Assembly (NCBI RefSeq): GCF_028993575.1
Contig: NZ_CP118615.1
Coordinates: forward strand, 5,981,001-6,045,000
Source of the DNA: Micromonospora cathayae
GTDB taxonomy: Bacteria > Actinomycetota > Actinomycetes > Mycobacteriales > Micromonosporaceae
DNA: 64,000 nucleotides
Direction: 5' to 3'
The position numbers and the translations under genes are program-made. Position 1 is the stretch's first letter, and every line of letters starts with the position of its first letter. A model generated the notes under the pieces. That model had not been told where the DNA came from. It did not search any database and worked only from the letters and a program-made list of their open reading frames with translations. Below, piece after piece: positions 48,595-63,317 of the stretch.

Positions 48595-49583
48595 GCGCCG
48601 ACAACGCGGCGGCGACCTCCTGCACCGTCGCCCGCACGTAGGTGGCTGTAGTACCAGCATCACCGCCGCCTTCTGAATGACCGGCGTAGGCCCGAGCGAT
48701 GGCATAGCCGAAGTTCCTTTCCACCCAGGTCAGCGTGGTGTGACGCAACCAGTGTGCTGACCTGTTGTGTATACACCCACGGCAGGTGCTCGCCGATCCG
48801 CACCCACAGATGATCATAACATCGATACGTGATGGGCTGCCCACTTCGATAGCGCAGCAGTTGCCCCGCCTCCGTCGCGCCCCGCTCCTCAGCATGCCGT
48901 TGCAGATACCGCATCAGCGTCGGAGATACCGGTTGCCACCGCCTAGAGTCCGCCTTCTCTCGCAGCAGGATCAGGCACTGGTCTTGGTCCAGATCGGCCG
49001 GACGAAGCGCCAGCGCGCCACCGCGCCGACAGGCCGTCTCGGTGTGCAACCTCAGAAGCAAGGTGTCGAGCGCCGGATCGTCGCCGGTGCTGGCTGCAAC
49101 TTCGTTGATCTCGGCCAGCCGGGTATCCGCCACGGCCCGGCGTGTGCTCGGCAGCCGCCGCGGTTTCGCCACCTTCAACGCAGGGTTCTCCGACGCCATG
49201 ATGAACCCATCAGCGACTGCCCTCTTGTAGAGACAACGCAAGGCGGCAATCGGATGCTCCGCCGCGCTTCGACCTCCACGGGCGTTCCGCCGAGCCACCA
49301 CGTGCGTCTTGACATGCTCCGCCAACTGCTCAATCTCCGACGGGGTGGGCTCGTCCAGTCTTCGATGCCCCCAGTGCTCCACCACCCGCTTCCAGTAGGA
49401 GCCGTAGGCACGCCGTGTACCCGCCGTGACCGCAGCCGCCACCACCGGGACATACTCGGCGAAGGTCGGCGACGGAGGCCGAGCCACCGCGGCGTCCAAC
49501 ATCTCAGCAGGCGAGATACCCATCCGGGCAAGCAGCAGCCGAGCCGCGTCCAATTCAGCATGATTCGCCGATGCATCACTCAT
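48566..49583 (-). pseudogene. tyrosine recombinase (integrase) with a frameshift near 48762
   Basis: Site-specific integrase of about 338 residues. The N-terminal SAM-like DNA-binding domain covers residues about 25-120 and the catalytic domain follows. All catalytic residues can be found: Arg in HTETACRRGGALAL, the HxxR motif in AHWLRHTTL, His in YAGHSEGG and Tyr in TATYVRATV. The first Arg lies in one frame; the others follow a one-base shift near 48762 (after LPWVYTQQV). The start ATG overlaps the stop of the upstream AbrB-type gene. Without correction the enzyme would be inactive. A sequence error or recent mutation is likely. It lies 600 bases from the tRNA fragment, its probable target site. 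Confidence 0.8.
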
Positions 49584-50145
49584 GCTCGCCGCCCCCGAAC
49601 ACCGCATCATGAGCCTGGGTGATCAGCTCGTCGAGCTTCGCCGGCGGGTGAACCACCAGCCGTCCGCTGGCCGGTTCAGCCACGATGAAAACGCGGTCAC
49701 CGGCCGCGAGACCGCACCACTGACGAACCACCGCCGGCAGCCGGACATGACCCTCCTTGGCCACCTGAAAGACACCTTGTGGATCTGCGGACACCACAAT
49801 CAGCCCGCGGCGCTCCCTGATGCTCAATCGCCGTCCGGGCACCCACTGGAGCACCCTCATCGCCGACCGATCAGCGATCCGGCCGTGCGCATTCAGCGTG
49901 ACCAGCCCGTAGACAGCCAGACGACTGCGAGTGGCGGCGAGAGTTGGAAGCGGTAGCGGAGGTCGCCTCATGGCCGCAGCGGGAGAACCAGAAGCACCAC
50001 GTGCGCTGGTCTGCTGACCGGGCAGGGCAACAGCAGGAATGACAGCCGAGATGGCGTGTGTTGTCGCAGCTCTCGCTCCGGAGGGCTTGCCACGAGGGGC
50101 AGCACCGGTGCCTGTGTCGTAGGAGCTTCGGCGGTGGTCAAGCAT
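49576..50145 (-). CDS. AbrB/SpoVT-type DNA-binding protein, operon partner of the integrase
   Basis: Protein of up to 189 residues whose C-terminal 60 residues form a swapped-hairpin AbrB/MazE-type domain: FQVAKEGHVRLPAVVRQWCG then LAAGDRVFIVAEPASGRLVV. The N-terminal part is Ala/Arg-rich; ATG 49971 is an alternative start. The 50145 start codon sits in the loop of a perfect 12-bp inverted repeat, as expected for tight autoregulation. It likely controls integrase expression, which is inference. Confidence 0.7.
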   Translation of the reverse strand: MLDHRRSSYDTGTGAAPRGKPSGARAATTHAISAVIPAVALPGQQTSARGASGSPAAAMRRPPLPLPTLAATRSRLAVYGLVTLNAHGRIADRSAMRVLQWVPGRRLSIRERRGLIVVSADPQGVFQVAKEGHVRLPAVVRQWCGLAAGDRVFIVAEPASGRLVVHPPAKLDELITQAHDAVFGGGEHE

Positions 50146-50158: not shown

Positions 50159-50188
50159 TACGTCATCTTGTGCACAAATGAAAGATAC

Positions 50189-50217
50189 TGGTGTCCGAGG
50201 GGGGACTTGAACCCCCA
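50189..50217 (-). other. tRNA 3' fragment with CCA, integration attachment site
   Basis: On the minus strand, GGGGGTTCAAGTCCCCC (a perfect T-arm) is followed by CTCGGACACCA (acceptor strand plus encoded CCA). No matching 5' acceptor strand or anticodon arm exists upstream, so this is only the 3' end of a tRNA gene. The sequence resembles the end of an actinobacterial tRNA-Leu, but that identity is uncertain. Such fragments mark attachment sites of tyrosine-integrase elements, and such an integrase lies 600 bases away. Confidence 0.85.
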
Positions 50218-50392
50218 AATAGCGGGCCGCTGACCTGCGCCGATCCTATCGACCCTGCTCAGCTTGTGTCTACTCGTGCCCCGTTGTGGCCGCTTGTAGC
50301 CCTGTGTTCCCGCCGGTGATCCCGCCGGGAACACCGTTGATCTTGCCCATGCGAAGGGGACCGGCCCAGCGGACCGGCCCCCAGCTGTACGG

Positions 50393-50890
50393 TTACGGTC
50401 GTTCGACGACCCCGTGCACGGTGTCGGCTGCGTCGACCGGCACCTCTTCCCACATCCAGTGGCCGCCCATCACGTCGTACCGACCGCGCTCGTCCGGCTC
50501 GATGCGCAGCTCCGGCTCGTCGAGCGCCGAGCGGTCGACCACGATCACGTCACCGTCCCACCGCATCTCCGGCACGTCGGCGTTGAGCGCGCGGCTCAGC
50601 CTCGGCTCGGTCATGCCGTGTGCCCGGTACTCTGCCCGCCAGTGCCGGCGGGCGTGCTCCTGGTCGGTCACCACCGCGGCGGCGACGTCGCGGGTGCAGG
50701 ACCACACCGCCCAGCCGTTCCACCGCCGGACCAGCGTGCCGGCGTACGCCGCCTCGAACCGTCGGCCGCCGTCGTACGGGTACTCCAGCCACTCCCCCGC
50801 GAAGTACCCAGACTCGCCGGGCTGGAGGAACGGGTCGAGGTCGAGCAGCATCCCCGTTTCGGGTCGGGGACGCTCAAGAGTCAGTTCCAC
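50393..50890 (-). CDS. uncharacterised phage protein
   Basis: Acidic protein of 165 residues, rich in Trp and Tyr (FAGEWLEYPYDGGRRFEAAY, WDGDVIVVDRSALDEPELR). GTG 50890 has AAGGAG 5 bases upstream. It is the last gene of the leftward phage block. The family is not recognised. A CCACGTGAAC element overlaps its start. Confidence 0.7.
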   Translation of the reverse strand: MELTLERPRPETGMLLDLDPFLQPGESGYFAGEWLEYPYDGGRRFEAAYAGTLVRRWNGWAVWSCTRDVAAAVVTDQEHARRHWRAEYRAHGMTEPRLSRALNADVPEMRWDGDVIVVDRSALDEPELRIEPDERGRYDVMGGHWMWEEVPVDAADTVHGVVERP

Positions 50891-50906
50891 GTGAACTCCT
50901 TCGTCG

Positions 50907-51326
50907 TCAGAACAGGGTCAGGGCCGGCGACTGGCGTGGCCGGTCCAGCTCGGGCACTTCCTGGTTGGTCTGCTCTTCCCACCAGGCCGCGAACATGCGC
51001 CGGTGGCACCAGTTGTCCGGCGGCGGCACGTTCAGGTCGCAGAAGCAGAGCAAGACGAGCCGGTCGGTGCCGGCCTTGTCGGCGATCTCGGCGAACTGCT
51101 CGGAGATCAGGTCGACGCCGTGGGCTTCCAGCCGCTCCAGGTAGATGTGCCGGTACGGGCCCTCGGCCATCTTGAGCATCGAGTAGGTCGGCGCGAGGAG
51201 CTGGGCGAAGCCGGCCAGGTCGTACGGCAGGCCGAACCGTGGCTTGCCCACGGTCGTCCGGACCGGCGCGCCCTGGTCAGGCTGGAACCGCTGGTAGCGG
51301 TTCGTGAACAGATGCAAGTCGGTCAC
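50907..51326 (-). CDS. DUF488-family phage protein
   Basis: Protein of 139 residues. Its N-terminal strand (LHLFTNRYQRF) and C-terminal signature LLCFCDLNV...WCHRRMFAAWWEEQ match the DUF488 family, whose members have a conserved Cys-His-Arg (CHRR) motif. The biochemical role is not established. It overlaps the upstream gene by 4 bases. Confidence 0.75.
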   Translation of the reverse strand: MTDLHLFTNRYQRFQPDQGAPVRTTVGKPRFGLPYDLAGFAQLLAPTYSMLKMAEGPYRHIYLERLEAHGVDLISEQFAEIADKAGTDRLVLLCFCDLNVPPPDNWCHRRMFAAWWEEQTNQEVPELDRPRQSPALTLF

Positions 51327-51796
51327 GCCGCCGCCCTCGCCTCAGTGCTGGCCTCGGCCGGCGTCGACAGCGGCACGACCGTCGCCGGCCGTTCCGCCAG
51401 CCACTGCCGTCCGACGCGTGCCAGCCGCTCGACCAGCTCGTTGCGCACCTTCTCGGCGCCCTCGGCGTACTGCTCCAGACGGGGAAGCACCCTTCGGGTG
51501 TCGGGGTCGGATTCGGCCTTCTTCCGCGCTGGGGCGAGCAGCCACCGCTCGTTGGCGGCCACCTCCATGTCGGCGACAGTGACCGCGAACGCGATGCCTC
51601 GCAGCTCGGCTGCCTTGTGGATGGCGTCGACCACGGCGGAGGCCAGGTCTCGGGCGTCCCGCTCGCGCAGGTCCAGGTCGAGGTCTGCCGCCATCGTGGT
51701 CAGCGCCGCGGTGGCCAGGTCGCGGACCTCGATGTAGCCCGGCAGGGCCTTCTTGACCTGGCTGGCCTCGTCCTCGATCTTCGCGTTCCGGCTCAT
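51323..51796 (-). CDS. uncharacterised helical phage protein
   Basis: Protein of 157 residues, highly helical and charged (EDEASQVKKALPGYIEVRDL, DARDLASAVVDAIHKAAELR). ATG 51796 overlaps the stop of the upstream gene and its own stop overlaps the DUF488 start, so it is part of a tightly coupled operon. No family is recognised. Confidence 0.7.
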   Translation of the reverse strand: MSRNAKIEDEASQVKKALPGYIEVRDLATAALTTMAADLDLDLRERDARDLASAVVDAIHKAAELRGIAFAVTVADMEVAANERWLLAPARKKAESDPDTRRVLPRLEQYAEGAEKVRNELVERLARVGRQWLAERPATVVPLSTPAEASTEARAAA

Positions 51797-52146
51797 GCGG
51801 CACCACCCGGCCGGCATCGGTGGCCGCAGTCGGGCATTGCGGCCGTACAGCTCGCGGGCACAGTTGTCCCCTCTCCGTTCGGTTTCGGCAGCTGGGCTGC
51901 CCTGACTTCCGCGACGAGCGCCGGGCCGGCGTGGGTGTCGAACACCGCCCGTCGGGCGACCCGGAAGGCCGCCGGTCCGAGCGGGACCGCGTTCAGCATC
52001 CGCGCCTGCCGGTAGAGCTCGGCCTGCGCTCGTCGCATCGCCTGCCGGAGGCGGGCCGGCTGGTGCGGCAGCGGCCACGCCCACAGGACCGTGACCACGC
52101 GCCGCGCACCGATTACCTCCAGCAGTCGGGGGTTGTACATAAACAT
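51793..52146 (-). CDS. uncharacterised small phage protein behind promoter P1
   Basis: Protein of up to 117 residues (YNPRLLEVIGARRVVTVLWA, ARLRQAMRRAQAELYRQARM). The start is uncertain: ATG 52146 and ATG 52140 overlap or closely follow the -10 box of the promoter at 52145-52173, so translation must be nearly leaderless or begin further inside, for example at GTG 52098. It overlaps the next gene by 4 bases. The family is not recognised. Confidence 0.6.
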   Translation of the reverse strand: MFMYNPRLLEVIGARRVVTVLWAWPLPHQPARLRQAMRRAQAELYRQARMLNAVPLGPAAFRVARRAVFDTHAGPALVAEVRAAQLPKPNGEGTTVPASCTAAMPDCGHRCRPGGAA

Positions 52147-52173
52147 TGTATCTGACTGGGTACGTGCCGTCAA
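52145..52173 (-). promoter_or_regulatory. phage promoter P1
   Basis: On the minus strand, TTGACG (52173-52168), a 17-bp spacer and TACAAT (52150-52145) form a near-consensus promoter. TGTAC follows shortly after the -10, as in the three sister promoters. It would drive the terminal small-gene operon to 50393. Confidence 0.75.
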
Positions 52174-52211
52174 ACTGCGACCGTACAGGCGGCGACCACG
52201 ACGAGGCGGCC

Positions 52212-52454
52212 TCACAAGTTCAACGCCCGCCGCTGCTGGTCGTCGAGCGCCGCGCGGGCCTTCTCAACGAGCGGCCCGCCGTCGCAGGCCAGGCACAACA
52301 CCACTGGGTCCCGGTCGCCCCGGCGCACCCGCACCCGGGCCCGCCGGCAGATGCCGCAGGGTGGCAGGTCGATCGGCCCGAGGACCGGCATCAGCGCGCT
52401 CCACGCGAACAGGCGTCCACGCCCGGAGCATACGCACTCCCACTGCACCCGCAC
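52212..52454 (-). CDS. small Cys-containing phage protein
   Basis: Protein of 80 residues with a possible zinc site formed by PPCGICRR and LCLACDGG (two CxxC pairs), followed by a helical tail (VEKARAALDDQQRRALN). The start is uncertain. No family is recognised. Confidence 0.55.
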   Translation of the reverse strand: MRVQWECVCSGRGRLFAWSALMPVLGPIDLPPCGICRRARVRVRRGDRDPVVLCLACDGGPLVEKARAALDDQQRRALNL

Positions 52455-52473
52455 AGGGTTCGCCAGGACGGCA

Positions 52474-52503
52474 GACGCCCCGCGGGTCAGCCCGCGGGGC
52501 GTC
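52474..52503. terminator. hairpin after parB-like gene
   Basis: A perfect 13-bp stem (GACGCCCCGCGGG, 52474-52486, paired with 52491-52503) with loop TCAG lies 17 bases past the ParB-like stop, reading on the minus strand. It lacks a U tract. Confidence 0.7.
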
Positions 52504-52519
52504 CACTCTCACCGGCCGC

Positions 52520-53614
52520 TCAGTGCTGGCACACCGAGCAGAACCCGACCTCCTGCACCGCGTCGGCGTGGCCCTCCCACGTGCAGTCCGGGTCCACCTT
52601 GATCGTGCCGTCGTTGACCAGCGGCCCCGGCACCGGCGCCACGTCGACCAGGTCCGCCGGAATCGCCACGACGTCCGGGTGCAGTTCCACCGTCACGGCG
52701 GCGGCGAGCGCCTGAGCCTTGCGCAGCTTCGTCGCCACCTTGCCCGCCAGCGACCGCAGGTCGTCGACGCGCTGCCGGTGCGCGGCCACGCCGCCCTCGG
52801 CGCCGGCGAGCAGCTTCGCCAGCTCCTTCTCGTCCATCTGCGCCAGCTCGTACAGCAGCTTCCCGGCCGTCTCCAGCCGCTCGATCTTGCTGACCACCTT
52901 CTTGCGCTCCTGGACCACCTTCTCCTGGGCCTCTTCGTCGTGCTCGGCCTCGTCCAGCTTGAAGAACTCCACCTGCTCCTCAGCCGCCTTGCACGCCTTG
53001 GCGAACGCCTCGGCGTCCCGCGCCGACGAGAACTCGCCGCGCGCCCACTTCACGAGGAACCGCCGCTGCTGGTCGGCGGACAGCCGGCACACGTACCAGG
53101 CGACCCCCACCTGCAGCTGGCCCTTGGCGACGAGCTGCTTGGCGTCGTCGATCAGGCCCAGCAGGTCGATCCGCCACCCGATGTACGGCTGGCTCTTGCC
53201 GAACAGCTCGGCAATCGCCGACGTCTCCCAGCCCGCGTCGGCGAGGCGCGCGTACGCGGCGGCCTCCTCCATCGGCGTCATGTCCTGGCGGTTGACGTTC
53301 TCCGCGACCTGCGCGATGAACGCCGCTTCGTCGTCCATCTCCCACACCAGCGCGGCCAACTCCTCGAGGCCGCCCTGCTGGGCGGCCCGCCAGCGCCGCT
53401 CGCCGACGACCAGGCGGTAGTGGCCCGCCTTGCCCGTCTTGCGCACGGCGATCGGCTGGAGCTGACCGATCTTCTTCATCGAGGCCGCCAGCTCGGTCAG
53501 CTCGTCCTCGGTGAACAGCTTGCGCGGCTGGCCTGGGTCCGCCTCGATCTTGCTGACGGGGATCGTCCGCACCACCGGCTTCGCCGGCTTGGTCGCAGTT
53601 GCAGTGGCAACCAT
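52520..53614 (-). CDS. ParB/Spo0J-like protein of the phage element
   Basis: Protein of 364 residues. The N-terminal ParB/sulfiredoxin-like domain reads PVSKIEADPGQPRKLFTEDE, QPIAVRKTG and YRLVVGERRWRAAQ (the ParB NTPase/clamp signature is near GERRWRA). A central HTH follows (MTPMEEAAAYARLADAGWET, IAELFGKSQPYI). The C-terminal part is a long charged helix and a CSVC end. It may be a partition protein or a phage regulator, as many phages have a lone ParB without ParA. AAGGAGG-like GGAGGAAG precedes ATG 53614. Promoter P2 drives it. Confidence 0.85.
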   Translation of the reverse strand: MVATATATKPAKPVVRTIPVSKIEADPGQPRKLFTEDELTELAASMKKIGQLQPIAVRKTGKAGHYRLVVGERRWRAAQQGGLEELAALVWEMDDEAAFIAQVAENVNRQDMTPMEEAAAYARLADAGWETSAIAELFGKSQPYIGWRIDLLGLIDDAKQLVAKGQLQVGVAWYVCRLSADQQRRFLVKWARGEFSSARDAEAFAKACKAAEEQVEFFKLDEAEHDEEAQEKVVQERKKVVSKIERLETAGKLLYELAQMDEKELAKLLAGAEGGVAAHRQRVDDLRSLAGKVATKLRKAQALAAAVTVELHPDVVAIPADLVDVAPVPGPLVNDGTIKVDPDCTWEGHADAVQEVGFCSVCQH

Positions 53615-53647
53615 CGTCTTCCTCCACAGTGAACGGGGTACCGTGTG

Positions 53648-53699
53648 GTACATGTTCATTGTAGGGGACAAATGATCTTGCCGTCAATATTTTATGTAC
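53648..53699 (-). promoter_or_regulatory. phage promoter P2 with flanking GTAC half-sites
   Basis: On the minus strand, TTGACG (53687-53682), an 18-bp spacer and TACAAT (53663-53658) form the promoter of the ParB-like gene. GTACAT precedes the -35 (53699-53694), and ATGTAC follows the -10 (53653-53648), giving an inverted pair 48 bp apart around the promoter. Confidence 0.8.
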
Positions 53700-53713
53700 G
53701 GCGCGCGGCTGGA

Positions 53714-54031
53714 TCACGAGGCCAGCGCACCGTACCCAATCGCCGCGATCATCAAGCTGCCCGTCTGGCTCGTTGCCACGACGCGGGCGGTGCGGCGCAT
53801 CCGCCACACCGTCCCCCCAGCAATGCGCGCCAACTCGACCGACAGCAGCGGGAGCAGCACCTCAACCACCCGCCCCGCTTGGTCGTCGGTCAGGTCGACG
53901 TCATCAACCCGCCCCGAGGCCAACTCCGCCTCGATCCGGTCGGCCAGCTTCTGGATCTCGATCGTGCGCTTCCGCAATGTGCAGCTCCCCGTGCTCGTGT
54001 CGATGCGCCAACAGTCTGACTGCGACCGCAT
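53714..54031 (-). CDS. uncharacterised small phage protein
   Basis: Protein of 105 residues, helical in its centre (RTIEIQKLADRIEAELASGR, DDQAGRVVEVLLPLLSVELA). The start may be one of several. No family is recognised. It lies between the recombinase and promoter P2. Confidence 0.5.
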   Translation of the reverse strand: MRSQSDCWRIDTSTGSCTLRKRTIEIQKLADRIEAELASGRVDDVDLTDDQAGRVVEVLLPLLSVELARIAGGTVWRMRRTARVVATSQTGSLMIAAIGYGALAS

Positions 54032-54197
54032 AGGGGCGGACGACTTAACCAGGACCTAAGGAAGATCGGAACCTGGATCATAAGCTGCCCCACACGAAGA
54101 GCAACAGGGCGATAGTTGACAGTAAGGAATTTTTCCCTCTATCTGTTACGCCGTTCGGACCAGCAACGATGCAACCTAACGGGGCACTGTCCACTTT

Positions 54198-55160
54198 TCA
54201 CTTCCAGACGAACTCCAGCCGGTCGAGGTCGAGCTGGTTCGCCCCGGCCCGGGTCGCTGGCTTGACGATGATCTTGTCCAGCACCAGCGCCAGCAGCTCC
54301 ATGCGCTGCTTCAGTGGCGCGTCGACCCACCACTCAGCCAGGCCCTCCGGCGTGGTCGCCGGCAGCGCCTGCAGTCGCACCGCCTGGGCCATGCGCTCAC
54401 GCAGCTGCTTCTGCTCGCTCCTCGCCTCTTCCTCGATCGCCATCAGCGTCACCATGCTGATCTCCCGCTTGGCGTACGCCTGGCCAGCTTCGGCCAGGCG
54501 ATCGTCGATCGCCTTGAGCGCCGCCTCCGTCGTCTCGTTGCCGCTCATCGCCGCCCTGGCGGCGTTCTCCAGTCGAGCCCGAACCTTCGGCGACGCCAGC
54601 CGGGCGAGCGCCCGCGCGGCGACCTCCTCCTCCAGGCTCTCCGCTGCGATCCGGATGCGCCCGCACCCGTAGCTGGGGCTGCCGGCCCGACACACATAGC
54701 CACGCTTGCCGCTGTTGCTCGGCTGCGTGTACAGCGGCTTGCCGTCGATCCGCTCGCCGCCGTTCTCGTCGGGCAGCGGGAAGCCGCACACGAGGAAGCC
54801 ACCAGACAGCAGGTACTTTCGCTGGTTCGTGGCATGCGGCTGTTTGCGATCCGGCGCGTCCAGCAGTTTCAGCAGCCGCCGGTGCGTCGGCATGTCGAGG
54901 ATCGGCGGCCAGTCGCCCTCGCCGACCACCTCACCCTTGTAGGTCTTCAGGCCCGCCAGCCGCGGATTGCGCAGCAGCCGAGAAAGCGACTGCTGCGTCC
55001 ACGGCCGCCCAGCCGATGTCATGATCTCCCGCGCTCGCAGATCCGCGACAACCGAGCGCATGCTTTCTCCGTCGAGGACCCGCTTGGCGACGTCGCGGAT
55101 CATCGTGGCCTCAGCCTCGATAACCCCCCGCCCCGTCGCGTCGTACCCATAGCACCGCAC
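54198..55160 (-). CDS. large serine recombinase lacking the catalytic domain
   Basis: Protein of 320 residues that starts directly in the Recombinase domain of large serine integrases (GYDATGRGVIEAEATMIRDV, then VADLRAREIMTSAGRPWTQQ). A zinc-ribbon region (VCGFPLP...YVCRAGSPSYGCGR) follows, then the coiled-coil end. One of the usual four zinc cysteines is missing. The N-terminal resolvase domain with the nucleophilic Ser is absent, and TAA stands two codons before GTG 55160, so it cannot be in the same frame. It may be inactive, or a DNA-binding derivative. The 380 bases upstream hold no catalytic domain. Confidence 0.8.
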   Translation of the reverse strand: MRCYGYDATGRGVIEAEATMIRDVAKRVLDGESMRSVVADLRAREIMTSAGRPWTQQSLSRLLRNPRLAGLKTYKGEVVGEGDWPPILDMPTHRRLLKLLDAPDRKQPHATNQRKYLLSGGFLVCGFPLPDENGGERIDGKPLYTQPSNSGKRGYVCRAGSPSYGCGRIRIAAESLEEEVAARALARLASPKVRARLENAARAAMSGNETTEAALKAIDDRLAEAGQAYAKREISMVTLMAIEEEARSEQKQLRERMAQAVRLQALPATTPEGLAEWWVDAPLKQRMELLALVLDKIIVKPATRAGANQLDLDRLEFVWK

Positions 55161-55543
55161 CGTTTACCCCCAGGCAGGTTCCCGGTCTGAACTCGACCGG
55201 GCTAGAGGGTAGCAGTGGGGCAAGGCAACGTACTACGTACACGCGCCTGTGAGATTCCACTGAGTCACTGTCACTTTTTGCACACTGCACCCCTACACCC
55301 TGACGTCCCGCCTTCGTCACGCACAGAGCCCGGGATTCCCTTGTGTGGGAATCCCGGGCTCTGGGTGGTTTTGCCCGGCGCAGGCCGGTCAGGTCTTGCT
55401 GTCCCCCGACGGCTCTCCTGACCGGTCCTGCTGACCAGACGGCACTGTGGGACAGGGCCGGTCACATTCAACCACTGCGACCGGACTGATAGCCACTACA
55501 GCGAAACCCACCGAACGCCGTCGCGGTATCTGACTCTCCTCCT
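55161..55543. other. gap upstream of the truncated recombinase
   Basis: No gene is seen here. The only clear structure is the hairpin at 55325-55362. The missing catalytic domain of the recombinase would be expected in this position if the gene had been intact. Confidence 0.5.
55325..55362 (+). terminator. strong hairpin with T-rich tail on the plus strand
   Basis: A perfect 16-bp stem (55325-55340 with 55347-55362) and a 6-base loop TTGTGT are followed by GGGTGGTTTT on the plus strand. The T-rich side faces right, against the direction of all neighbouring genes. Confidence 0.75.
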
Positions 55544-56526
55544 CTACTGGACCCCGGCGCCGACCGGCACCCGGGCTTCCTGCTGGTCGGTTCCGGCGGC
55601 GACGCTGCCGGCTCCCTTCTCGGCCCGGACCTCCGCCTTGGCCTCCCTGATCCGACTTCGGCCCCACCGCTCTTTGCGGCCGAACTGCGCACCGAGGGCC
55701 TGCGCGGTCAGCGGCTTCCCGGCGGCGACTGACTCCCGCCACGCCTTCCGGGCGGCAGCCCACAGCTCCGCCGTTGCCGCGTCCGGCGGCGCTGTCGGCT
55801 CGGGGTTCGGCATTGGCCGCCGGGCCGGCCACGGCACCGGTGGGACCACCGGCTCCATGCGCGGCAGCGGCACCCGCGCCGTCGGGGACACCGGCGGCAC
55901 GGCCGGCAGCGACACCGGCACCGGGTCCGGCAGCGGCTCGGGGTCCGGCACCGGCTCGGGCTCCGGGTCCGGCACCGGCACCGGCAGCGGCTCGGGCTCC
56001 GGGTCCGGCACCGGCTCGGGCTCCGGCACGGGCACGGGCACTGGCCCCTGGGCTGACAGGGGCTCGGGCTCGGCGACTGGCGGTGCCAGCACAGGCACCG
56101 AAGGCGGCGGCACCGGCGCCGGCGGCGCGCTGGCGGCCGCCGGGGCGGCAGCGCGCTCGGCATTCATTGCCGCGCGCCGCATCTGCGACAGCACCACCAG
56201 CGCGATCGACGCCACGACCACCAGGCCGTCGACGGACAGCTTGCCAGGGCGGCGACGCCGGCAACGATCAGCGTGCCGCCGATCTGCACGCCCCTCAGTA
56301 GCAGGTGCCGCGGTGCCGGCACCCGCGTCATCACCTCCGAGCACAGCAGCAGCGCCAGCGGCGCCCAGCCGGCAACTGCCTTCGCGCCGGCACCGGCACC
56401 GGCGTGCGCGATGTTCGCCGCCAGCGACGCGACGATGCCGGCACCAAACGCCAACCACGCCGACACCCAGGCGCCCTTGCTCGGCCGCTCCGGCACGTCC
56501 CTCTCCACGTGAACCACGGCCGGCAC
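55544..56526 (-). pseudogene. DUF2637 (SpdA-like) membrane protein gene with internal deletion and frameshift
   Basis: DUF2637 proteins of actinomycete mobile elements have four helices, a Pro-rich linker and a C-terminal HTH-like region. Here the first helices are in one frame (SAWLAFGAGIVASLAANIAH, WAPLALLLCSEVMTRV, GGTLIVAGVAALA). The last helix and the rest are in another (LSVDGLVVVASIALVVLSQM). The join near 56240 lacks the expected segment between the third and fourth helices. The Pro/Glu tandem region (PVPEPEPVPDPEP type) and the C-terminal LTAQALGAQFGRKERWGRSR are intact. The gene is probably dead. Confidence 0.7.
55918..56047. repeat. 18-bp-type tandem repeats encoding Pro/Glu/Asp linker
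   Basis: Imperfect tandem repeats of the type GGCTCGGGCTCCGGGTCC and GGCACCGGCACCGGCAGC encode alternating PVP, PEP and PDP units in the DUF2637 frame. Such repeats change length easily and may confuse assembly. Confidence 0.7.
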
Positions 56527-56642
56527 CTACCCGGCAGCCCTGGCGGCAGTGCCGCCGTCGAGCGGCAACACTGCCGCTTCCGGCAGTGCCGGCAGTGCCG
56601 GCACCGTCTTGCTCTCCATCGGTTTCCCTCCAACAGGTCGAG

Positions 56643-56666
56643 GCCGCCCGGGTTACCCCGGGCGGC
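56643..56666. terminator. hairpin after a small phage gene
   Basis: GCCGCCCGGG and CCCGGGCGGC form a perfect 10-bp stem with loop TTAC, 13 bases past the stop of the 56679-56969 gene on the minus strand. Confidence 0.65.
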
Positions 56667-56678
56667 TCTCGTGGGTGG

Positions 56679-56969
56679 CTACAGGCGGGTCAGCGTTTCG
56701 CCGACCAGCGGCCCGCTCTCCGCCCGCGCCCGCTCGTGCTCGGCCAGGTGGTCGACGCACAGCAGCTGCGTCTGCGTCCACGGGTCCAGCTCCAGGCCCT
56801 CCTCCGGGTCGAACAGGCACAGCCCGCCGTCCCCGCACTTCTCGCCGTCGTGCTCGGTCACCAGGCGAGCGACCGCGACAGCCGCGCAGGCGCCGCCGTC
56901 CTCCTCCGGCACGAACTCGGCGTTGAAGGTCGGCACCACGATGCGCTCGGTGCAGCTCAGGTTGGTCAT
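56679..56969 (-). CDS. uncharacterised acidic phage protein
   Basis: Acidic protein of 96 residues with several cysteines (GGACAAVAVARLVTEHDGEK, then CGDGGLCLFDPEEGLELDPW). AGGAG lies 6 bases before ATG 56969. A hairpin follows its stop. No family is recognised. Confidence 0.65.
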   Translation of the reverse strand: MTNLSCTERIVVPTFNAEFVPEEDGGACAAVAVARLVTEHDGEKCGDGGLCLFDPEEGLELDPWTQTQLLCVDHLAEHERARAESGPLVGETLTRL

Positions 56970-57053
56970 CTTTGGCTCCTCAGGTCAGGGTCGGGTTTGG
57001 GCAGGCAGGAAAGGGAAGCGGCGGGCGCGCTCGGGGCGCGCCCACCGGCTCGG

Positions 57054-57293
57054 TCAGCGGTACCGCTTGAGGCTCAGGGTGTACTCGCGGCCGTCGGTCA
57101 GCCGGATGACGACCCCGTTGTCCTGGCCCATGAAGCCCGCGTCGGCCAGCGTCTGGACCTCGCGGACCTCGACCGGCTCGCCGTCCTCGTCGGTCAGCGG
57201 CTGGTCGCCCGCCGTCTCGGCCGCCTCCTCCAGGGCCAGCTCCTCGGCGGCGACCAGCAGGGCGCGCTCCAGGATCTCCTCGTAGCTCAGCAT
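57054..57293 (-). CDS. uncharacterised small phage protein behind promoter P3
   Basis: Acidic protein of 79 residues (LSYEEILERALLVAAEELAL, GVVIRLTDGREYTLSLKRYR). ATG 57293 is chosen because AAGGAG is 8 bases upstream, whereas GTG 57302 touches it. It is the first gene after promoter P3. Confidence 0.65.
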   Translation of the reverse strand: MLSYEEILERALLVAAEELALEEAAETAGDQPLTDEDGEPVEVREVQTLADAGFMGQDNGVVIRLTDGREYTLSLKRYR

Positions 57294-57329
57294 CGGGCTC
57301 ACTCCTTAGTGCAGATTGGGGGGCGTTGC

Positions 57330-57380
57330 GTACAGATTCATTGTATGCGTTTGACGTTCCTGCGTACAAGTTTTATGTAC
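57330..57380 (-). promoter_or_regulatory. phage promoter P3 with flanking GTAC half-sites
   Basis: On the minus strand, TTGTAC (57369-57364), an 18-bp spacer and TACAAT (57345-57340) form a promoter. GTACATAAAAC precedes the -35, and TGTAC follows the -10 (57334-57330), so the flanks match P2 and P4. It drives the small genes from 57293 leftward. Confidence 0.75.
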
Positions 57381-57485
57381 GCCTCGGGCCGTGTAGCAGG
57401 TCACACAGACCGGCGTCCACCCGTCCACGGAGAGCGCCGAACGCGCCGGGTCGGGTAGTGGAGTGAGGGTGTGGCCCGGCCCGGC

Positions 57486-57803
57486 TTAGGCGGGCTGTGA
57501 CCGGTCGGGGCGCTCCCCCAGCCGCCGGGCATCCAGCTCGGCCGCCGCCTCCAGCACCCACGCCGGCGGGCCCGGCCGCCGTCCCGCAGGGCGTGGCAGT
57601 GCCCGGCCGCCCGGCGCGGTCCGCTCCGCGCCGCACGCCTGGCACCTGGTCGTCAGCCACACCAGGCCGCCGCCCTCCTGCGCCGAGCCGTCGAGCATCC
57701 CGGCGCAAACGTCGCACACCCCCACCACACCAACCTCGGCGGCAGCGGCGAACGCCTCCACGTCGACCTGGCCGTCACGCACCAGCCTCGCGTCGATCGC
57801 CAC
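57486..57803 (-). CDS. small phage protein with CxxC pairs
   Basis: Protein of 105 residues with VCDVCAGML and RCQACGAER (two CxxC pairs), a likely zinc ribbon, then an Arg/Pro-rich part and a helix. GGAGG lies 6 bases before GTG 57803. No function is recognised; similar small zinc proteins are common in actinophage early regions. Confidence 0.65.
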   Translation of the reverse strand: MAIDARLVRDGQVDVEAFAAAAEVGVVGVCDVCAGMLDGSAQEGGGLVWLTTRCQACGAERTAPGGRALPRPAGRRPGPPAWVLEAAAELDARRLGERPDRSQPA

Positions 57804-57873
57804 CGCTCACCTCCGACCTCCGATGTGGGACAGGGCCGGGCAGAGGACGTCCTCCGCCCGACCCTGCGCCGCC

Positions 57874-58410
57874 CTACTCCTGCGAACTCGCCGGCAGTGC
57901 CAGCAGGTCCGGCAGCGCCAGCCGGCCGTCCCGGTAGGCCCGCGCCACCTCCTCACGCCCGCCCGTCTTCCAGGTCATCCGCGTTGACGGCGGGGGCGGC
58001 TCCGCGACCTCCACGAAGTCGAGAACCCGGCCCGTCTCGCCGTCGACCACCGTGCCGTCCGGCTCGACCGCCATCCGCGCGAGCAGCGCCTTCCGCCACG
58101 CCGGCCGCACCGACTCGACCGGCGCCGGCACGGTCACCTGGACCTCCGACGGGTGCTCCTGCTTGCACCAGGCGAGGAACCCCGCCTCGTCGACCACGAA
58201 GCCCGCCTTCGGCTCGGAGAGCGTCACCTGCGCCACGGGCGCGTCGTGGCCCGGCAGCCGGACCTCGATCGCCTTGACGCCGAACGACTGGTTCAAGCCG
58301 ACCATGCCGGCGTCGGCGTCGGCTCGGGCCAGGTCGTACGCCTTCTTCACCTCGTCGAGCAGCGCCTTGAGCACCGCCGCCCGCATCGCTCGCTCCTGCG
58401 GCCCCTTCAT
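57874..58410 (-). CDS. uncharacterised phage protein coupled to the RecA-like ATPase
   Basis: Protein of 178 residues. A helical start (LKALLDEVKKAYDLARADAD) precedes a mixed part (LNQSFGVKAIEVRLPGHDAP) and a C-terminal segment ending in LALPDLLALPASSQE. It overlaps the ATPase stop by 4 bases, so it is made together with it and may take part in phage recombination. No family is recognised. Confidence 0.75.
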   Translation of the reverse strand: MKGPQERAMRAAVLKALLDEVKKAYDLARADADAGMVGLNQSFGVKAIEVRLPGHDAPVAQVTLSEPKAGFVVDEAGFLAWCKQEHPSEVQVTVPAPVESVRPAWRKALLARMAVEPDGTVVDGETGRVLDFVEVAEPPPPSTRMTWKTGGREEVARAYRDGRLALPDLLALPASSQE

Positions 58411-59489
58411 CGGCCCGCTCCCGCCGTCTCGGGCTGCCGGCCGTTGGCCATGCGCCCAGCGTCGCGGGCCATCTGCGCGCCGGCCGCCTCCGAGGTGTCA
58501 GGGTCAGCGGCCCGCGCGCCGGCCGCGTCGGCCACTGCCCGGTCGAGCTGGGTGCCCGGGGCCTCGGCCGCCCGCCGCGCGGCGGCGATCTCCGCGCCTC
58601 GCGCGTTGAAGGCTTCCCGCAGCTTCTGCGTCTTGCCGAGGCGCTGCGCCCGCTGCCACAGCACCTCCAGGTCCTCCCGCGAGGCGCACGCGGCGAGGGC
58701 CTTCGGCCAGTCGACGTCCTTGGGGGGCTCACCGTTGTCCAGCCAGTCGAGCAGCTGGTGGCCCAGCTCCGCGCCCGGCTTGTGGATCACCTGGTCGGCC
58801 AGGGCGTCGCACCGGCTCTTCGTCACCCGCAGGTAGTGGCCCTGGTCGAGGTCGCCCACCAGGTCGAACTCGTACTCCAGTCCGTCTCTCTGGTCGGGCT
58901 GCATGCCCAGCTTGGACACCTGCTTCTTGCCGTCGCTGCCCTCGGTGATTTCGTACCTCTGCTTCGACCGCAGGCACACCACGACGTGCCCGGGAAAGCT
59001 CATCAGTGCCTCGATGTACGCCCGCTCGATCGGGCGCACGTCCTTCCAGCCGTCCATCGACCGGCCGCCGTGGTTGCGGGCGAACAGGTCAACCAGCTCC
59101 AGGATGCCGCCCGGCCCGAACCAGTAGTGCGACGCCGAGTCGAGCATGAACCCGGTGAAGCCGGCGTTCGCCGCCTCGTCGATCAGCTCGACGAGCTGCC
59201 GCGGGTCGTACCTGACTGGGGAGAACTTCTGGAAGCCGTAGCCGCCGGCCTCGTCCGGCGTCATGTCGCCGACGCCGGGCAGCTCCGGGTTGACCGCGTA
59301 CTTGTCGGCCGAGTCGCGCTCGGTGTCGACGAACGCGATCCGCTCCAGGCCGTCCGCGATGGTCTGCGCGCCGGTCAGCGTGTAGAGCAGCTTCAAGCCG
59401 GTCAGCGTCTTACCGGCACCGCTCGGCCCGGCGAGGGCGATGCGCGCCTTCGCCTTCTTCCGGGTGGCCGGCATGAACCTCGAACTCAT
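58407..59489 (-). CDS. phage RecA-like ATPase (Sak4-type recombination protein)
   Basis: ATPase of 360 residues. Walker A is GPSGAGKT near residue 25, a DTE motif (FVDTERDSA) follows near residue 55, and Walker B-like GFMLDSASH is near residue 118. RecA-fold segments SFPGHVVVCLRSKQRYEI and the late DLVGDLDQGHYLRVTKSRCD follow. The C-terminal 100 residues form a helical, Ala-rich tail. In phages such single-domain ATPases (Sak4-like) work in recombination-dependent replication with ssDNA-binding or annealing partners; which partner is used here is not clear. GAAGG lies just before ATG 59489. Confidence 0.8.
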   Translation of the reverse strand: MSSRFMPATRKKAKARIALAGPSGAGKTLTGLKLLYTLTGAQTIADGLERIAFVDTERDSADKYAVNPELPGVGDMTPDEAGGYGFQKFSPVRYDPRQLVELIDEAANAGFTGFMLDSASHYWFGPGGILELVDLFARNHGGRSMDGWKDVRPIERAYIEALMSFPGHVVVCLRSKQRYEITEGSDGKKQVSKLGMQPDQRDGLEYEFDLVGDLDQGHYLRVTKSRCDALADQVIHKPGAELGHQLLDWLDNGEPPKDVDWPKALAACASREDLEVLWQRAQRLGKTQKLREAFNARGAEIAAARRAAEAPGTQLDRAVADAAGARAADPDTSEAAGAQMARDAGRMANGRQPETAGAGR

Positions 59490-59530
59490 CCTTCGTCCCT
59501 TTCCACGTGAACGAACGTCCTACATAGATT

Positions 59531-59782
59531 CTATACGGTCGCAATGCGGCACTGCGACCCGACACCCACAGCCCACAACAAAGCGCCCGCGTGGCCCGCG
59601 CAGGCCTCGCTGCCGACGGCGGCCGGCAGGCCGCAGTCGTCTCGCCGGCAGATCACCGGCGTGGCCAGCTCGGTGCAGCCCGTGCCGCCCTCGCGGTGCC
59701 GCCAGTCGTCCCCGGCGGGCACGAGCACGCCACTGCACGTCGCGCACTGCGCGACGTCGATCAGCGCGAGGTTCACCCTCAT
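59531..59782 (-). CDS. small phage protein with Cys-rich zinc-like motifs
   Basis: Protein of 83 residues with AQCATCSGVL and VICRRDDCGLPAA...CAGH motifs, likely zinc-binding. ATG 59782 overlaps the stop of the HTH protein gene, so the two are coupled. Confidence 0.65.
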   Translation of the reverse strand: MRVNLALIDVAQCATCSGVLVPAGDDWRHREGGTGCTELATPVICRRDDCGLPAAVGSEACAGHAGALLWAVGVGSQCRIATV

Positions 59783-60483
59783 TCCCCGATCACACTCCTC
59801 TCTCGCTTGGAAACGACGTTCAGGCGCCGGCTGTGTAGTGGTGCCGACCGCTTGCATCCGGGCATGGCGCACTGGCCGTTCGGCCCTTCGATGTAGGCGT
59901 GGTCGTCGACGCCGCTGCCGCGTTCGGAGGGCGACCCAACCGTTTCTTGTTCCCTGTATGTATTGCGTCCGCCTGACGGACCAACTCGGTCCGCCTGGCG
60001 GACTAGAGCTAGTCCGCGACGCGTACCACTACCGACCTTCACTGGTCCGCCTCTCGTACCAGCCGAACCGGACGAGTCGGGCGGGTCGGACCGAGCTGGT
60101 CCGGCACGCGGACCAACCACGCCCAGCTCGGTGAGCCGCCGCAACAGCTCGGGCGGCACGCCCAGGCGATAGACCGTCCGGGCCTTCTTGCGGCGGGCGT
60201 CCGCGACCGTCGGCCGCTCGCGCCACACCCACTTGTTCTCCGTGCGCTCCGCGCCGTCCTCGCCGTCCTTGCCCTCCAGCACGTTGAGCCACTTCGCGAC
60301 CGACGACCGCGCAAGCCCGGTCGCCTTCTGCAAGTCGGTCAGGCTGGGCGTGAACTGCTCGGGGATCACCGCCGTGGCCGCGTCGGACCACGTGAGGAGC
60401 GTCAAGACGAGCTGCCGGCCGGGAGGGTCGAGCGTGCAAAGCTCGTGCCTCACCGCGCGCTCGACCGTCCAGCGGTCCACCAT
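59779..60483 (-). CDS. replication-type HTH protein of the phage, with internal repeat array
   Basis: Protein of 234 residues. The N-terminal 110 residues form a winged-helix-like domain (WTVERAVRHELCTLDPPGRQ, LTDLQKATGLARSSVAKWLN). The C-terminal half is low-complexity, with repeated segments such as VGPRAGPARSDPP and VRQADRVGPSGG, encoded by the pentamer array at 59967-60114. A Cys motif (CAMPGCK) lies near the end. An HTH protein with repeats in its own gene resembles a phage replication initiator carrying the origin, as in lambda O. The role is inference. Confidence 0.7.
   Translation of the reverse strand: MVDRWTVERAVRHELCTLDPPGRQLVLTLLTWSDAATAVIPEQFTPSLTDLQKATGLARSSVAKWLNVLEGKDGEDGAERTENKWVWRERPTVADARRKKARTVYRLGVPPELLRRLTELGVVGPRAGPARSDPPDSSGSAGTRGGPVKVGSGTRRGLALVRQADRVGPSGGRNTYREQETVGSPSERGSGVDDHAYIEGPNGQCAMPGCKRSAPLHSRRLNVVSKRERSVIGE
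59967..60114. repeat. array of GTCCG/CGGAC pentamers, candidate replication origin
   Basis: Ten copies of GTCCG or its complement CGGAC occur in 148 bp, starting at 59967, 59977, 59988, 59999, 60012, 60045, 60069, 60087, 60099 and 60109. Several pairs form inverted repeats such as GTCCGCC-T-GGCGGAC (59989-60003) and GGACC-GAGCT-GGTCC (60088-60102). Most neighbours are 10-13 bp apart, close to one helical turn. The array lies in the replication-type gene. Confidence 0.6.
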
Positions 60484-60583
60484 GCAGGCGGCCTCTCTGT
60501 GCAGCGCCGCCAGCGCACCGTCGCCCAGGCTGGCGTACGATGCGCGTGCGACCCGTTCTCCGTTCCGGGTACGTCCATTTCGG

Positions 60584-60609
60584 CCCCGCCAGATGACCGC
60601 CTGGCGGGG
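60584..60609. terminator. hairpin between two phage genes
   Basis: CCCCGCCAG and CTGGCGGGG form a perfect 9-bp stem with an 8-base loop, 67 bases past the stop of the small HTH gene on the minus strand. Confidence 0.6.
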
Positions 60610-60675
60610 TCGAGACGTTTTCCGGCACCCTACACCGGCTCTGTACGGCCGCAGTGGGTTCCGACGTGCTCATAC

Positions 60676-60978
60676 CTACGCCGCTGCCTCGTCGGGTTCG
60701 AGGACGTCCCACGGGTCCCACACGATCGTCCGGTTCGTGTCCTCGGCCCAGGCGTAGATCGTCGCCAGCTTCCACTGGGGGTTGTTGCTGAGCTCGCCGT
60801 CCTCCTTGGGCAACTGCCCCTTCGACCGCCACTGATACGGCGTGTTGTCCTTCACGCCGAACATGCGGACCAGCTCCTTGAGCCCGACCGTCACCGGCAG
60901 CTCCAGAGGGCCCGGCTTCATCAGGTCGGCCGCGATCTGCCGCGTGACCGCCTTGAGCTTGCCCTGGTTCACCTTCAC
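60676..60978 (-). CDS. small phage HTH DNA-binding protein
   Basis: Protein of 100 residues with an HTH near residues 35-60 (LPVTVGLKELVRMFGVKDNT, then PYQWRSKGQLPKEDGEL), similar to excisionase- or MerR-like domains. Then comes an acidic end (TIVWDPWDVLEPDEAAA). GTG 60978 is chosen because GGGAGGAG is 7 bases upstream. It is the first gene after promoter P4 and a candidate regulator of the GTAC-flanked promoters, which is inference. Confidence 0.75.
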   Translation of the reverse strand: MKVNQGKLKAVTRQIAADLMKPGPLELPVTVGLKELVRMFGVKDNTPYQWRSKGQLPKEDGELSNNPQWKLATIYAWAEDTNRTIVWDPWDVLEPDEAAA

Positions 60979-61144
60979 TGTCCCTCTCCTCCCACGGCCG
61001 GATGCCATACAGGGTCAATGTACGGCACCCGCCGGGGACATCTAGGCCGCCACCGAGGCGGCGCACGGCTCGCTACACAGCAGGGATCGCACCGGCCTGG
61101 CCAGTGCCTTTCTCATCCATTCCTCCTCGTAGAGATGGCGAGGC

Positions 61145-61195
61145 GTACAGAGTCATTGTATACAACTCGGCCCCGCGCGTCAATATTGTATGTAC
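61145..61195 (-). promoter_or_regulatory. phage promoter P4 with flanking GTAC half-sites
   Basis: On the minus strand, TTGACG (61183-61178), a 17-bp spacer and TACAAT (61160-61155) form a near-consensus promoter. GTACATACAATA precedes the -35, and TGTAC follows the -10 at 61149-61145. It would drive the small HTH gene. A similar but weaker element (TACATTGACCCTGTAT) lies at 61005-61020. Confidence 0.8.
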
Positions 61196-61257
61196 GCGCC
61201 GTGTCGGCTTTGCCCACCGTCGCCACGGGCCGCTATGCTGGTGTCTCCACGTGAACG

Positions 61258-61295
61258 CAGCGCAGCCCCGGATTTCGCGATCCGGGGCTGCGCTG
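61258..61295. terminator. hairpin closing the tail-gene operon
   Basis: A perfect 16-bp stem (61258-61273 with 61280-61295) with loop TTCGCG lies 23 bases past the stop of the glycine-rich tail gene on the minus strand. It separates the structural genes from the promoter P4 region. Confidence 0.8.
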
Positions 61296-61317
61296 TTTCC
61301 GAGGCCAGGTGGGGCGG

Positions 61318-62217
61318 CTAGTAGATGACCTCCACGATGCACAGGCCGCCACCGCCGGCCCCGCCCAACCGCGACGTCGTCGAGGCGATGCCACCGCCAC
61401 CGCCACCGCCGTGCCCGCCCGCGTTGAGCCCGTTCACGCCGGTCGACACCGGAGCCGCCCCGCCCATCCCCAGCAGCGAGTTGCCGCCGAATGCCGCGAA
61501 CACGTGCTGGGCGTCGAGTGTCCGGCCCGGCCCGCCGCCCGCGCCCAGGGAGTTGAGGACGTTCCCGCCCGTCGCTGCGCCGCCGCCACCTCGGCTGCCG
61601 CTTGTGCTCGCCGTGCCCGCTGTGGCCCCGTTGCCGCCGGTGCCGCCGCCAGCCGTCCACAGCCCGCCGAAGCTCGTGCTGCCGCCGGCCCCGCCCTGCG
61701 CACCGGCCAGGCCCGCAGCGCCGGCCGCACCGACGGTCACCGCCACCTCGGCCGGCAGCTCCTCCGCCGGCCACACGCTCTCGCAGTACCCGCCGCCACC
61801 ACCACCCCCGCCCGCGCCGTGGCCGCTGGCCGCCCCGATCACGCCGCCGCCGCCACCGCCGCCGCCGACCCCGTACGCCCGGATCCACCGCGCCCCGGCC
61901 GGCACCGTGAACTCGCCGTCCTCCGTGAACCGCTGGACCAGCGGCGCGGCCGGCAGGCCCGCCGCCGGCGTACCCACCCAGCCGACGATGTGGTTCCCGG
62001 CCGGCGGCGTCTTGAGCACCATCACCCGGGCGCGCACCGCCACGGGCCCGATCATCGACGCCACCCGGATCGGCTGGGTGTCGCCGTCGTGCAGCACCCG
62101 GATCGTCCCGTCGTCGGCAACGCTCATCACCGTCGCCGGGCGTAGGCGCCATGTCAGGCCGAGCTGGATCGCCCTCTCCAGCACCGCCTCGGCCAGCGCC
62201 TTCACCGGTACCGCCAT
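61318..62217 (-). CDS. glycine-rich phage tail protein
   Basis: Protein of 299 residues from ATG 62217 (GTG 62235 overlaps the upstream stop and is an alternative). The N-terminal 90 residues form an OB-like part (LGLTWRLRPATVMSVADDGT). Then follows a glycine-rich domain (FTVPAGARWIRAYGVGGGGG) with polyGly runs, ending VIGGAGGGGLCIVEVIY-like. Glycine-rich tail-tip domains of this type are known in phage receptor-binding or tail-assembly proteins. It is the last gene of the structural operon. Confidence 0.82.
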   Translation of the reverse strand: MAVPVKALAEAVLERAIQLGLTWRLRPATVMSVADDGTIRVLHDGDTQPIRVASMIGPVAVRARVMVLKTPPAGNHIVGWVGTPAAGLPAAPLVQRFTEDGEFTVPAGARWIRAYGVGGGGGGGGVIGAASGHGAGGGGGGGGYCESVWPAEELPAEVAVTVGAAGAAGLAGAQGGAGGSTSFGGLWTAGGGTGGNGATAGTASTSGSRGGGGAATGGNVLNSLGAGGGPGRTLDAQHVFAAFGGNSLLGMGGAAPVSTGVNGLNAGGHGGGGGGGIASTTSRLGGAGGGGLCIVEVIY

Positions 62218-62231
62218 CCCGCCGTTCCCGC

Positions 62232-63317
62232 TCACGCCTCCCCGCCCTTCGTCTCCGGGTACGCCCGCCGCAACGTGTGCCTCATCTCCCCGCCCGGCAC
62301 CAGCGGCATCGTCCAGCCGACCTCCAGCCACCGCAGCCCGTCCCAGCGCACCACCTCGTAGGCGTCGTGCCGCGGGTCGACCGGGGTGCTCAGCTCCACG
62401 ACCTCGTACACCGTCTGCTGGAGCCCCAGCGTCCGGGCGTACACCGTCGCCTGCGCCTGCGACCGCACCTGCACGTCGACCGTCTTCGGCAGCACGAACC
62501 CGCGCCGCTCGATCGAGTGCGGCGCCGACGCCGGCACGTCGTACGTCCCGACCACCGGCTCCGCGTCCGAGCCCGGGTCGTTGGACACCACCACGAAGCG
62601 GTTCGGCGCGACCAGCAGGTCACTCGTCCGCGAGATCGACCCCCGGATGACACGGCGGGAGGCATCCAGGTCGATCGTGACCGCCTGGCTGGCTGGATCG
62701 AACGCGCGGCGCAGCCGCAGCCAGCCCTGGTGGTTGACCCACGGCATGAAATACCCACCCTGCGCGGCCAGGTCCCGCAGCGCGTTCGCCCGCGACGTGC
62801 CCGGCGACCAAGCCGACGCCGACGTGAACTCGGTCGCGTCGACCACCAGCGGCCCGATCGGCAGCCCGTCGACGAGCCGTGCCGCCGCCTGGTCGACGAG
62901 CTGCCCGCCCGCGTCGAAGCCGACGTCCAGCTCCTGGTCGACCACGAACATCTCGTCGAGCAGCGTCAACGGCGCGGTCGAGCCGGCGCTGGTCACCAGG
63001 TCCGACGAGTCCGACACCATGTAGCGGCCCAGCTGGTACGAGGTGCCGTCGCCCAGCAGCATCCGGGGCGCGATCCGGTCCGTCATCTGGTTGATCCGCT
63101 TCGCGTCCTCCACGCCGAGGGTCACTCCGGACAGCCGGCGCGGGATCGTCGAGGTGCTGTCGTGGCTCAGACTCGGCGGCGAGCTGCCCCGCAGCGGCGT
63201 GAGCTCACCCCGGCGCACCCCGTTCCGGCCGTCGATGAGGTCGAAGCGGAACGAGGCCGACCGCTGCCCGCGGTACGCCGGCAGGTCCAGCAGATCAGGC
63301 GGAGGCGCAGATGCCAC
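62232..63317 (-). CDS. phage minor tail protein
   Basis: Protein of 361 residues with beta-rich segments typical of tail-hub proteins (FRFDLIDGRNGVRRGELTPL, YQLGRYMVSDSSDLVTSAGS, EVVRWDGLRWLEVGWTMPLV). It resembles minor tail proteins of siphoviruses of actinobacteria. GTG 63317 overlaps the upstream gene end by 23 bases, and its stop overlaps the next gene region. Confidence 0.7.
   Translation of the reverse strand: MASAPPPDLLDLPAYRGQRSASFRFDLIDGRNGVRRGELTPLRGSSPPSLSHDSTSTIPRRLSGVTLGVEDAKRINQMTDRIAPRMLLGDGTSYQLGRYMVSDSSDLVTSAGSTAPLTLLDEMFVVDQELDVGFDAGGQLVDQAAARLVDGLPIGPLVVDATEFTSASAWSPGTSRANALRDLAAQGGYFMPWVNHQGWLRLRRAFDPASQAVTIDLDASRRVIRGSISRTSDLLVAPNRFVVVSNDPGSDAEPVVGTYDVPASAPHSIERRGFVLPKTVDVQVRSQAQATVYARTLGLQQTVYEVVELSTPVDPRHDAYEVVRWDGLRWLEVGWTMPLVPGGEMRHTLRRAYPETKGGEA

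Follow-up and report, generated by a model that had tools for sequence, protein, structure and literature searches.

In the temperate actinophage phiC31, many perfect dyads are dispersed over the genome, and in mycobacteriophage BPs the small repressor gp33 acts at several promoters genome-wide through two-site operators with one palindrome and a variable spacer, with immunity that depends on integration (PMC4557955). The repressor of mycobacteriophage L5 and cluster A has 20-30 genome-wide sites oriented with transcription (PMC6550527), and plasmid RK2 represses plasmid promoters through KorB, a ParB-family CTPase clamp, together with a DNA-binding partner (PMC11790492). Here, we describe a set of dispersed operators in a 70.4-kb prophage of Micromonospora cathayae, analysed in a 64,000-nucleotide stretch of its chromosome (NZ_CP118615.1, positions 5,981,001 to 6,045,000; hereafter the window); features further right are given in window-equivalent positions, that is, in window numbering carried on beyond the window end. 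The best reading, by analogy, is that these operators would work like the phiC31 or BPs immunity systems, and from sequence alone they outline what is likely the regulon of a family of temperate Micromonosporaceae phages.

Like phiC31, the prophage carries dispersed dyads, but their form is TACA-N7-TGTA (12 sites; strict form RTACA-N7-TGTAY), whereas the dyad enriched in phiC31 is CTACTCACGTGAGTAG-like and centred on CACGTG. A scan of the phiC31 genome (NC_001978) as positive control recovered its own dyads in about 15 copies, which we take to be the sites of the phiC31 repressor (c). That genome contains neither RTACA-N7-TGTAY nor TACA-N7-TGTA (0 sites each), and tblastn with the annotated phiC31 repressor gene, translated from L266, found no convincing homologue in the 70-kb prophage (best E 0.73). 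In phages with a BPs-type repressor, the attachment site lies inside the repressor gene; here, unlike BPs, the attachment repeat is the 3' end of a tRNA-Leu gene and 50186-50217, outside the gene of HTH60676, the candidate repressor discussed below. The pairing of sites at promoters with variable spacing, here 34 or 35 bp, is like that of BPs, but the BPs palindrome has 12 bp (CGACATATGTCG) and the dyad here 17 bp. L5 stoperators are asymmetric 13-bp sequences bound by a monomer and mostly off promoters, whereas the sites here are dyads, 10 of the 12 covering a -10 or -35 hexamer in a TACAAT promoter.

The initial annotation of the window described four leftward promoters (P1 to P4), all of which are confirmed at the stated places on the minus strand, and it was right about the outer GTAC boxes 47-48 bp apart and about GTACATA 5' of the -35 at P2, P3 and P4. 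It misread the unit, however, as one inverted GTAC pair of 47-48 bp: the true unit is the 17-bp dyad RTACA-N7-TGTAY, present once or twice per promoter. When TACA-Nk-TGTA was counted in the prophage for k from 0 to 20, 12 sites, spread across 60 kb, had k = 7, and all other values of k together gave 2. A scan of 4-bp half-sites (at least three A/T, gaps 0-15) again singled out TACA at gap 7, with 12 sites against 3 for the next best. The strict form RTACA-N7-TGTAY occurs 10 times in the 7.2-Mb genome, every time inside the prophage (control 0) and nowhere in the rest of the host genome. This restriction, together with largely syntenic sites in relatives, lends good support to the earlier proposal of one DNA-binding protein for a scattered set of prophage genes, and it points to joint control of these genes by one phage protein. 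That a host regulator reads the sites instead is highly improbable, since the strict dyad is found nowhere else in the genome, even though the promoters resemble host sigma-A promoters.

The four promoters of the window are arranged as follows.

52135-52151, minus strand: P1 operator ATACAATGTTTATGTAC, with -10 TACAAT at 52145-52150 and -35 TTGACG at 52168-52173
53648-53699, minus strand: P2, the ParB1 promoter, with right operator 53648-53664 (CTACA-N7-TGTAC), TACAAT 53658-53663, TTGACG 53682-53687 and left outer half GTACATA at 53693-53699
57330-57380, minus strand: P3, with right operator 57330-57346 and left operator 57364-57380, both complete, and TACAAT 57340-57345
61145-61195, minus strand: P4, with right operator 61145-61161, TACAAT 61155-61160, TTGACG 61178-61183 and left outer half GTACA 61191-61195

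Three further leftward TACAAT promoters lie right of the window (window-equivalent 82475, 84190 and 112063), so the set of four that had been proposed holds for its members but is too small, with seven TACAAT promoters and 12 TACA-N7-TGTA sites in the prophage. The right dyad covers the -10 at all seven, TACAAT being its inner half-site, and a second dyad over the -35, 34-35 bp upstream, is complete at three, including P3; P2 and P4 have only the outer half of the left dyad, and at P1 a left operator of the RTACA-N7-TGTAY type is absent. At P3, the -35 aligned with the operator is TGTACG (57363-57368) with a 17-bp spacer, equivalent to the TTGTAC with 18 bp read earlier. The motif TACAATGNNNNTGTAC is present in the window in four exact copies and, with up to two mismatches, in eight matches against 0.38 expected, a number reached in none of 100 shuffles. 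With at most one mismatch, the 7,196,442-bp chromosome has seven matches, each of them exact and on the minus strand, between chromosome positions 6033135 and 6093063 (60 kb), compared with two for the motif read backwards. Counted from the first base of the -10, the called start codon is 45-63 nt away for five of the seven promoters, 182 nt away for P4, where it is that of the helix-turn-helix (HTH) protein HTH60676, and 10 nt away for P1. Two open reading frames (ORFs) accompany P1 and P3.

51793-52140, minus strand: 115-aa ORF starting within the P1 operator (ATG-TAC); its MYNPR start is retained in several relatives
57054-57293, minus strand: 79-aa ORF downstream of P3

Because the start codon of the first lies inside the operator and relatives show, by eye, wobble-position changes after it, the sequence suggests a leaderless or nearly leaderless message. 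In P1 orthologues, a CGGTC-N7-GACCG-like dyad was also seen by eye over the -35 (52160-52190), with the same 7-bp gap and another half-site.

The operator set is largely common to, and syntenic with, that of ten related Micromonosporaceae prophages, not every site being in every prophage; with our own, these make up a core set of 11 prophages with the motif, some of whose sites lie on broken contigs. Of 160 genomes of the genus, 10, our own included, have the full promoter pattern (41 sites, control 0), and 11 of 354 genomes of the family have the two-dyad pattern (control 0). In a contig database, seven Micromonosporaceae records hold 21 of the 26 matching stretches, and the other five are single matches in unrelated bacteria. 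The 11 prophages yielded 78 promoters when TACAAT-N5-TGTA was required, a selection that fixes the right dyad and makes its conservation partly a matter of construction: 35 have two full dyads spaced 34 or 35 bp, 23 have the outer left half only and 20 have no left dyad. In the outer-half-only class, the left box is in register with the -35 in 23/23, and the -35 is of the TTGAC type in 22/23, where the two-dyad class has, by definition, TGTA. With the operator fused to both promoter hexamers, we read this pattern as a visible trade-off between the operator half-site (TGTAC) and promoter strength through a good -35 (TTGAC).

Other dyads stand apart from the TACAAT promoters.

61007-61023, minus strand: lone operator GTACATTGACCCTGTAT, upstream of the HTH60676 gene, holding TACATT (61017-61022), a possible -10; some relatives have longer arms here
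60630-60646, minus strand: second lone dyad GTACAGAGCCGGTGTAG, between the HTH60676 gene and ORF 59779-60483, overlapping a possible -10, TAGGGT
59779-60483, minus strand: 234-aa ORF following the 60630 dyad and giving a weak HTH signal
59520-59536, minus strand: degenerate dyad GTATAGAATCTATGTAG, upstream of an AAA gene, with similar sequence in most relatives

The first and last of these had been listed as weaker relatives of the promoter boxes, which is apt for 59520-59536, whereas 61007-61023 is a full dyad and a complete operator. It is also the most symmetric one, reading GCCGTACA-N7-TGTACGGC in G116 and G336 (genomes of related prophages are cited by such numbers). Its arms are GCC..GGC in these two and GTC..GAC in the more distant relative G174, a matching change on both arms. 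It may be the HTH60676 gene's own promoter, because it holds TACATT and the second distant relative, G193, has TAGATT there, alongside TAGAAT at four of the five G193 promoters found. The 60630-60646 dyad overlaps a putative promoter of the next ORF. One may argue that the boxes are a promoter module multiplied inside the phage, the GTAC dyads being a stretched promoter consensus read by no regulator, given that all seven promoters share direction and SigA-type hexamers, and that P3, 82475 and 84190 share some 20 bp further upstream. However, a promoter alone needs no 7-bp-spaced dyad, no lone dyads and no matched outer-arm changes of the lone operator, and 35/78 promoters have TGTA (part of the definition of their class) in place of the better -35 TTGAC, so this explanation is improbable.

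As to the protein that reads the sites, the annotation had pointed either to the HTH protein beside P4 or to a repressor right of the window. No good candidate for the latter was found, and the former is the best candidate on comparative grounds, which are only suggestive.

60676-60978, minus strand: HTH60676, a 100-aa winged-HTH protein, best candidate for the operator-binding protein

Of the 354 family genomes, 13 have homologues of HTH60676, namely G174, G193 and the 11 that carry the motif. Its helix VKDNTPYQWRSK is identical in 11/11 core phages but differs in both distant relatives, whose prophages retain the operator layout with an altered sequence: right operators have TATAC as their outer half-site at 4/4 pattern matches in G174 and at 4/5 in G193, and the G193 -10 is mostly TAGAAT. 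These half-site variants offer a ready test set for co-evolution of specificity and for the identity of the immunity repressor. Right of the window, two proteins fit poorly as the repressor. The XRE protein 70157-71026, the one XRE protein followed across relatives for a lambda-type CI/Cro (XRE) switch, has no match in G116 and G134 and reaches no more than 26-28% identity in G018, G044 and G336, although all five retain the operators, and ParB2 (110411-112000) has no match in G336, although G336 retains operators.

We favour, at somewhat less than even confidence, the reading that one prophage-encoded dimeric protein, most probably HTH60676, uses the sites as dispersed operators and would repress the leftward promoters. 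Each operator is a 17-bp dyad built into a sigma-A-type promoter, with TACAAT doubling as inner half-site, and many promoters have another operator covering the -35. A dimer bound to either operator or to both would keep RNA polymerase from all the leftward promoters together, so that ParB1, ParB2, several small genes and the HTH gene itself would stay off until the binder is removed. The HTH60676 gene, lying between two lone operators, would be autoregulated. We infer that the effect is repression rather than activation and that it has a role in lysogeny. Several points weigh against this reading. All core phages are one lineage, and therefore co-occurrence cannot single out the binder. Two lineages alone show the joint change of helix and half-site, and as their HTH60676 has only about 53% identity, drift may account for the altered helix. 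Half-sites, too, changed only in part, with TGTAC still at the G174 lone operator, the G193 ParB1 promoter and the inner half of G193 left operators, and gap 7 is not clearly special in the distant phages, where TA[CT]A-Nk-T[AG]TA gives 6 (G174) and 3 (G193) sites at k = 7 and 4 in each at k = 5. In G110, the residue after the HTH60676 helix and parts of the wing differ while the operators are the same. Moreover, Xis/AlpA-type winged helices often bind direct repeats, not dyads, and a repressor made from repressed promoters would have to stay expressed in the lysogen.

Two further products of the region compete with HTH60676 for the operators.

52520-53614, minus strand: ParB1, ParB/Noc/KorB-type (ParB_N + HTH_ParB), with P2 as its promoter; competing binder or co-regulator
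54198-55160, minus strand: recombinase-domain protein, C-terminal part of a large serine recombinase with no resolvase catalytic domain; rival operator binder

ParB1, a predicted CTPase-type ParB, might itself be an operator-binding global repressor like KorB of RK2, autoregulating via P2. Its orthologues of at least 80% identity are in exactly the 10/160 genus genomes with the motif, next to ParB-like matches of about 32-41% in other genomes listed, and its own promoter has an operator in 11/11 core prophages. Structural alignments match it to ParB, Noc and KorB, and its likeness to KorB, by sequence only, consists of ParB_N and HTH_ParB domains, the GERR motif and a KorB profile match (8qa8, E 4.3e-13). 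RK2, however, is a plasmid, and some relatives have a ParA-like gene that this prophage lacks. The ParB1 helix segment QVGVAWYV is of NAAW type in both distant phages, but the first recognition helix (PY-x-x-WRIDLL) is largely unchanged there in spite of the altered outer half-site, and a second, CACGTG-centred motif would make a more natural target for a ParB-type protein than the dyads. ParB1 as the operator binder is unlikely. The weakly ParA-like 308-aa gene (L049:1247-2173 and relatives) lies under P4 in 6/11 core prophages (G018, G044, G095, G116, G134 and G157), with a 63-aa piece in G035 and no match in G000, G030, G110 and G336.

The recombinase-domain protein, co-opted as a repressor, is a quite improbable binder. 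The sites of large serine integrases are inverted repeats of about 50 bp, resembling the 51-bp twin-box span, and the protein's DNA-binding region is altered in both distant phages. It has 320-321 aa and no catalytic domain in 11/11 core prophages, a constancy from which it is presumably retained for a non-recombination role. But a 50-bp site fits poorly with lone 17-bp dyads and single-operator promoters, and we know of no precedent for a serine recombinase without catalytic domain as repressor. Integration of the prophage, alongside this retained protein, is presumably by its tyrosine integrase.

The second prophage-enriched motif is TTCACGTGGA, whose core is the parS-like CACGTG.

61246-61255, minus strand: TTCACGTGGA box; in 11/11 core prophages it lies 95-97 bp 5' of the P4 -10
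50886, 56504, 59502 and 61246, minus strand: TTCACGTGGA copies in the window
81915, 82438, 83555, 112018 and 120334 (window-equivalent), minus strand: TTCACGTGGA copies right of the window

The genome has 10 copies, nine of them in the prophage and all nine on the minus strand (backwards-read control, 13 genome-wide), and 7/9 prophage copies lie no more than 35 nt before a called start codon. With near variants counted, the full regions retrieved, host DNA among them, have 110 boxes, 32 of which are within 120 bp of an operator promoter. G193 has seven copies, and the motif is absent from the fetched G174 stretch. ParB and Noc specificity involves parS-contact residues N178 and R204 (PMC7383237). 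In our own mapping, ParB1 has tryptophans at these positions, which speaks against the second motif as a ParB target. KorA is a small protein with dispersed operators. A two-layer, plasmid-like circuit akin to KorA/KorB, in which HTH60676 would act on the dyads and ParB1 would load at TTCACGTGGA, to be stopped at the promoters or to help silence them, with specificity drifting by lineage through matched half-site and recognition-helix changes into different immunity groups, is a speculative and rather unlikely extension.

The prophage is bounded by a 32-bp direct repeat, whose right copy (120575-120606) is the 3' end of tRNA-Leu(gag).

50186-50217, no strand: left attachment-site repeat, 32 bp identical to 120575-120606
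112088-113482 (window-equivalent): terminase, inside the prophage
119020-120327 (window-equivalent): tyrosine integrase, inside the prophage

Megablast of window 50300-62300 against phage records gave no match, no close relative of the prophage is among the 50,697 phage records searched, and its terminase is less than 60% identical to that of every one of 371 matching phage records. An actinobacterial prophage survey has been published (PMC10023795), and among the papers listed for Micromonospora prophages (15 of 67) and phages (7), in a search that leaves out most subscription journals, none describes this phage family as judged by title and abstract start. As cargo, the prophage holds a type III restriction-modification pair (L009:15725-19767, window-equivalent 99725-103767), and in at least G018 this part of the prophage holds other large genes. 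Just beyond the left repeat lies a second, weakly XerC-like recombinase (48660-49610); a G018 homologue near its phage end is a 54% match to it and has matches of its own in six further related regions.
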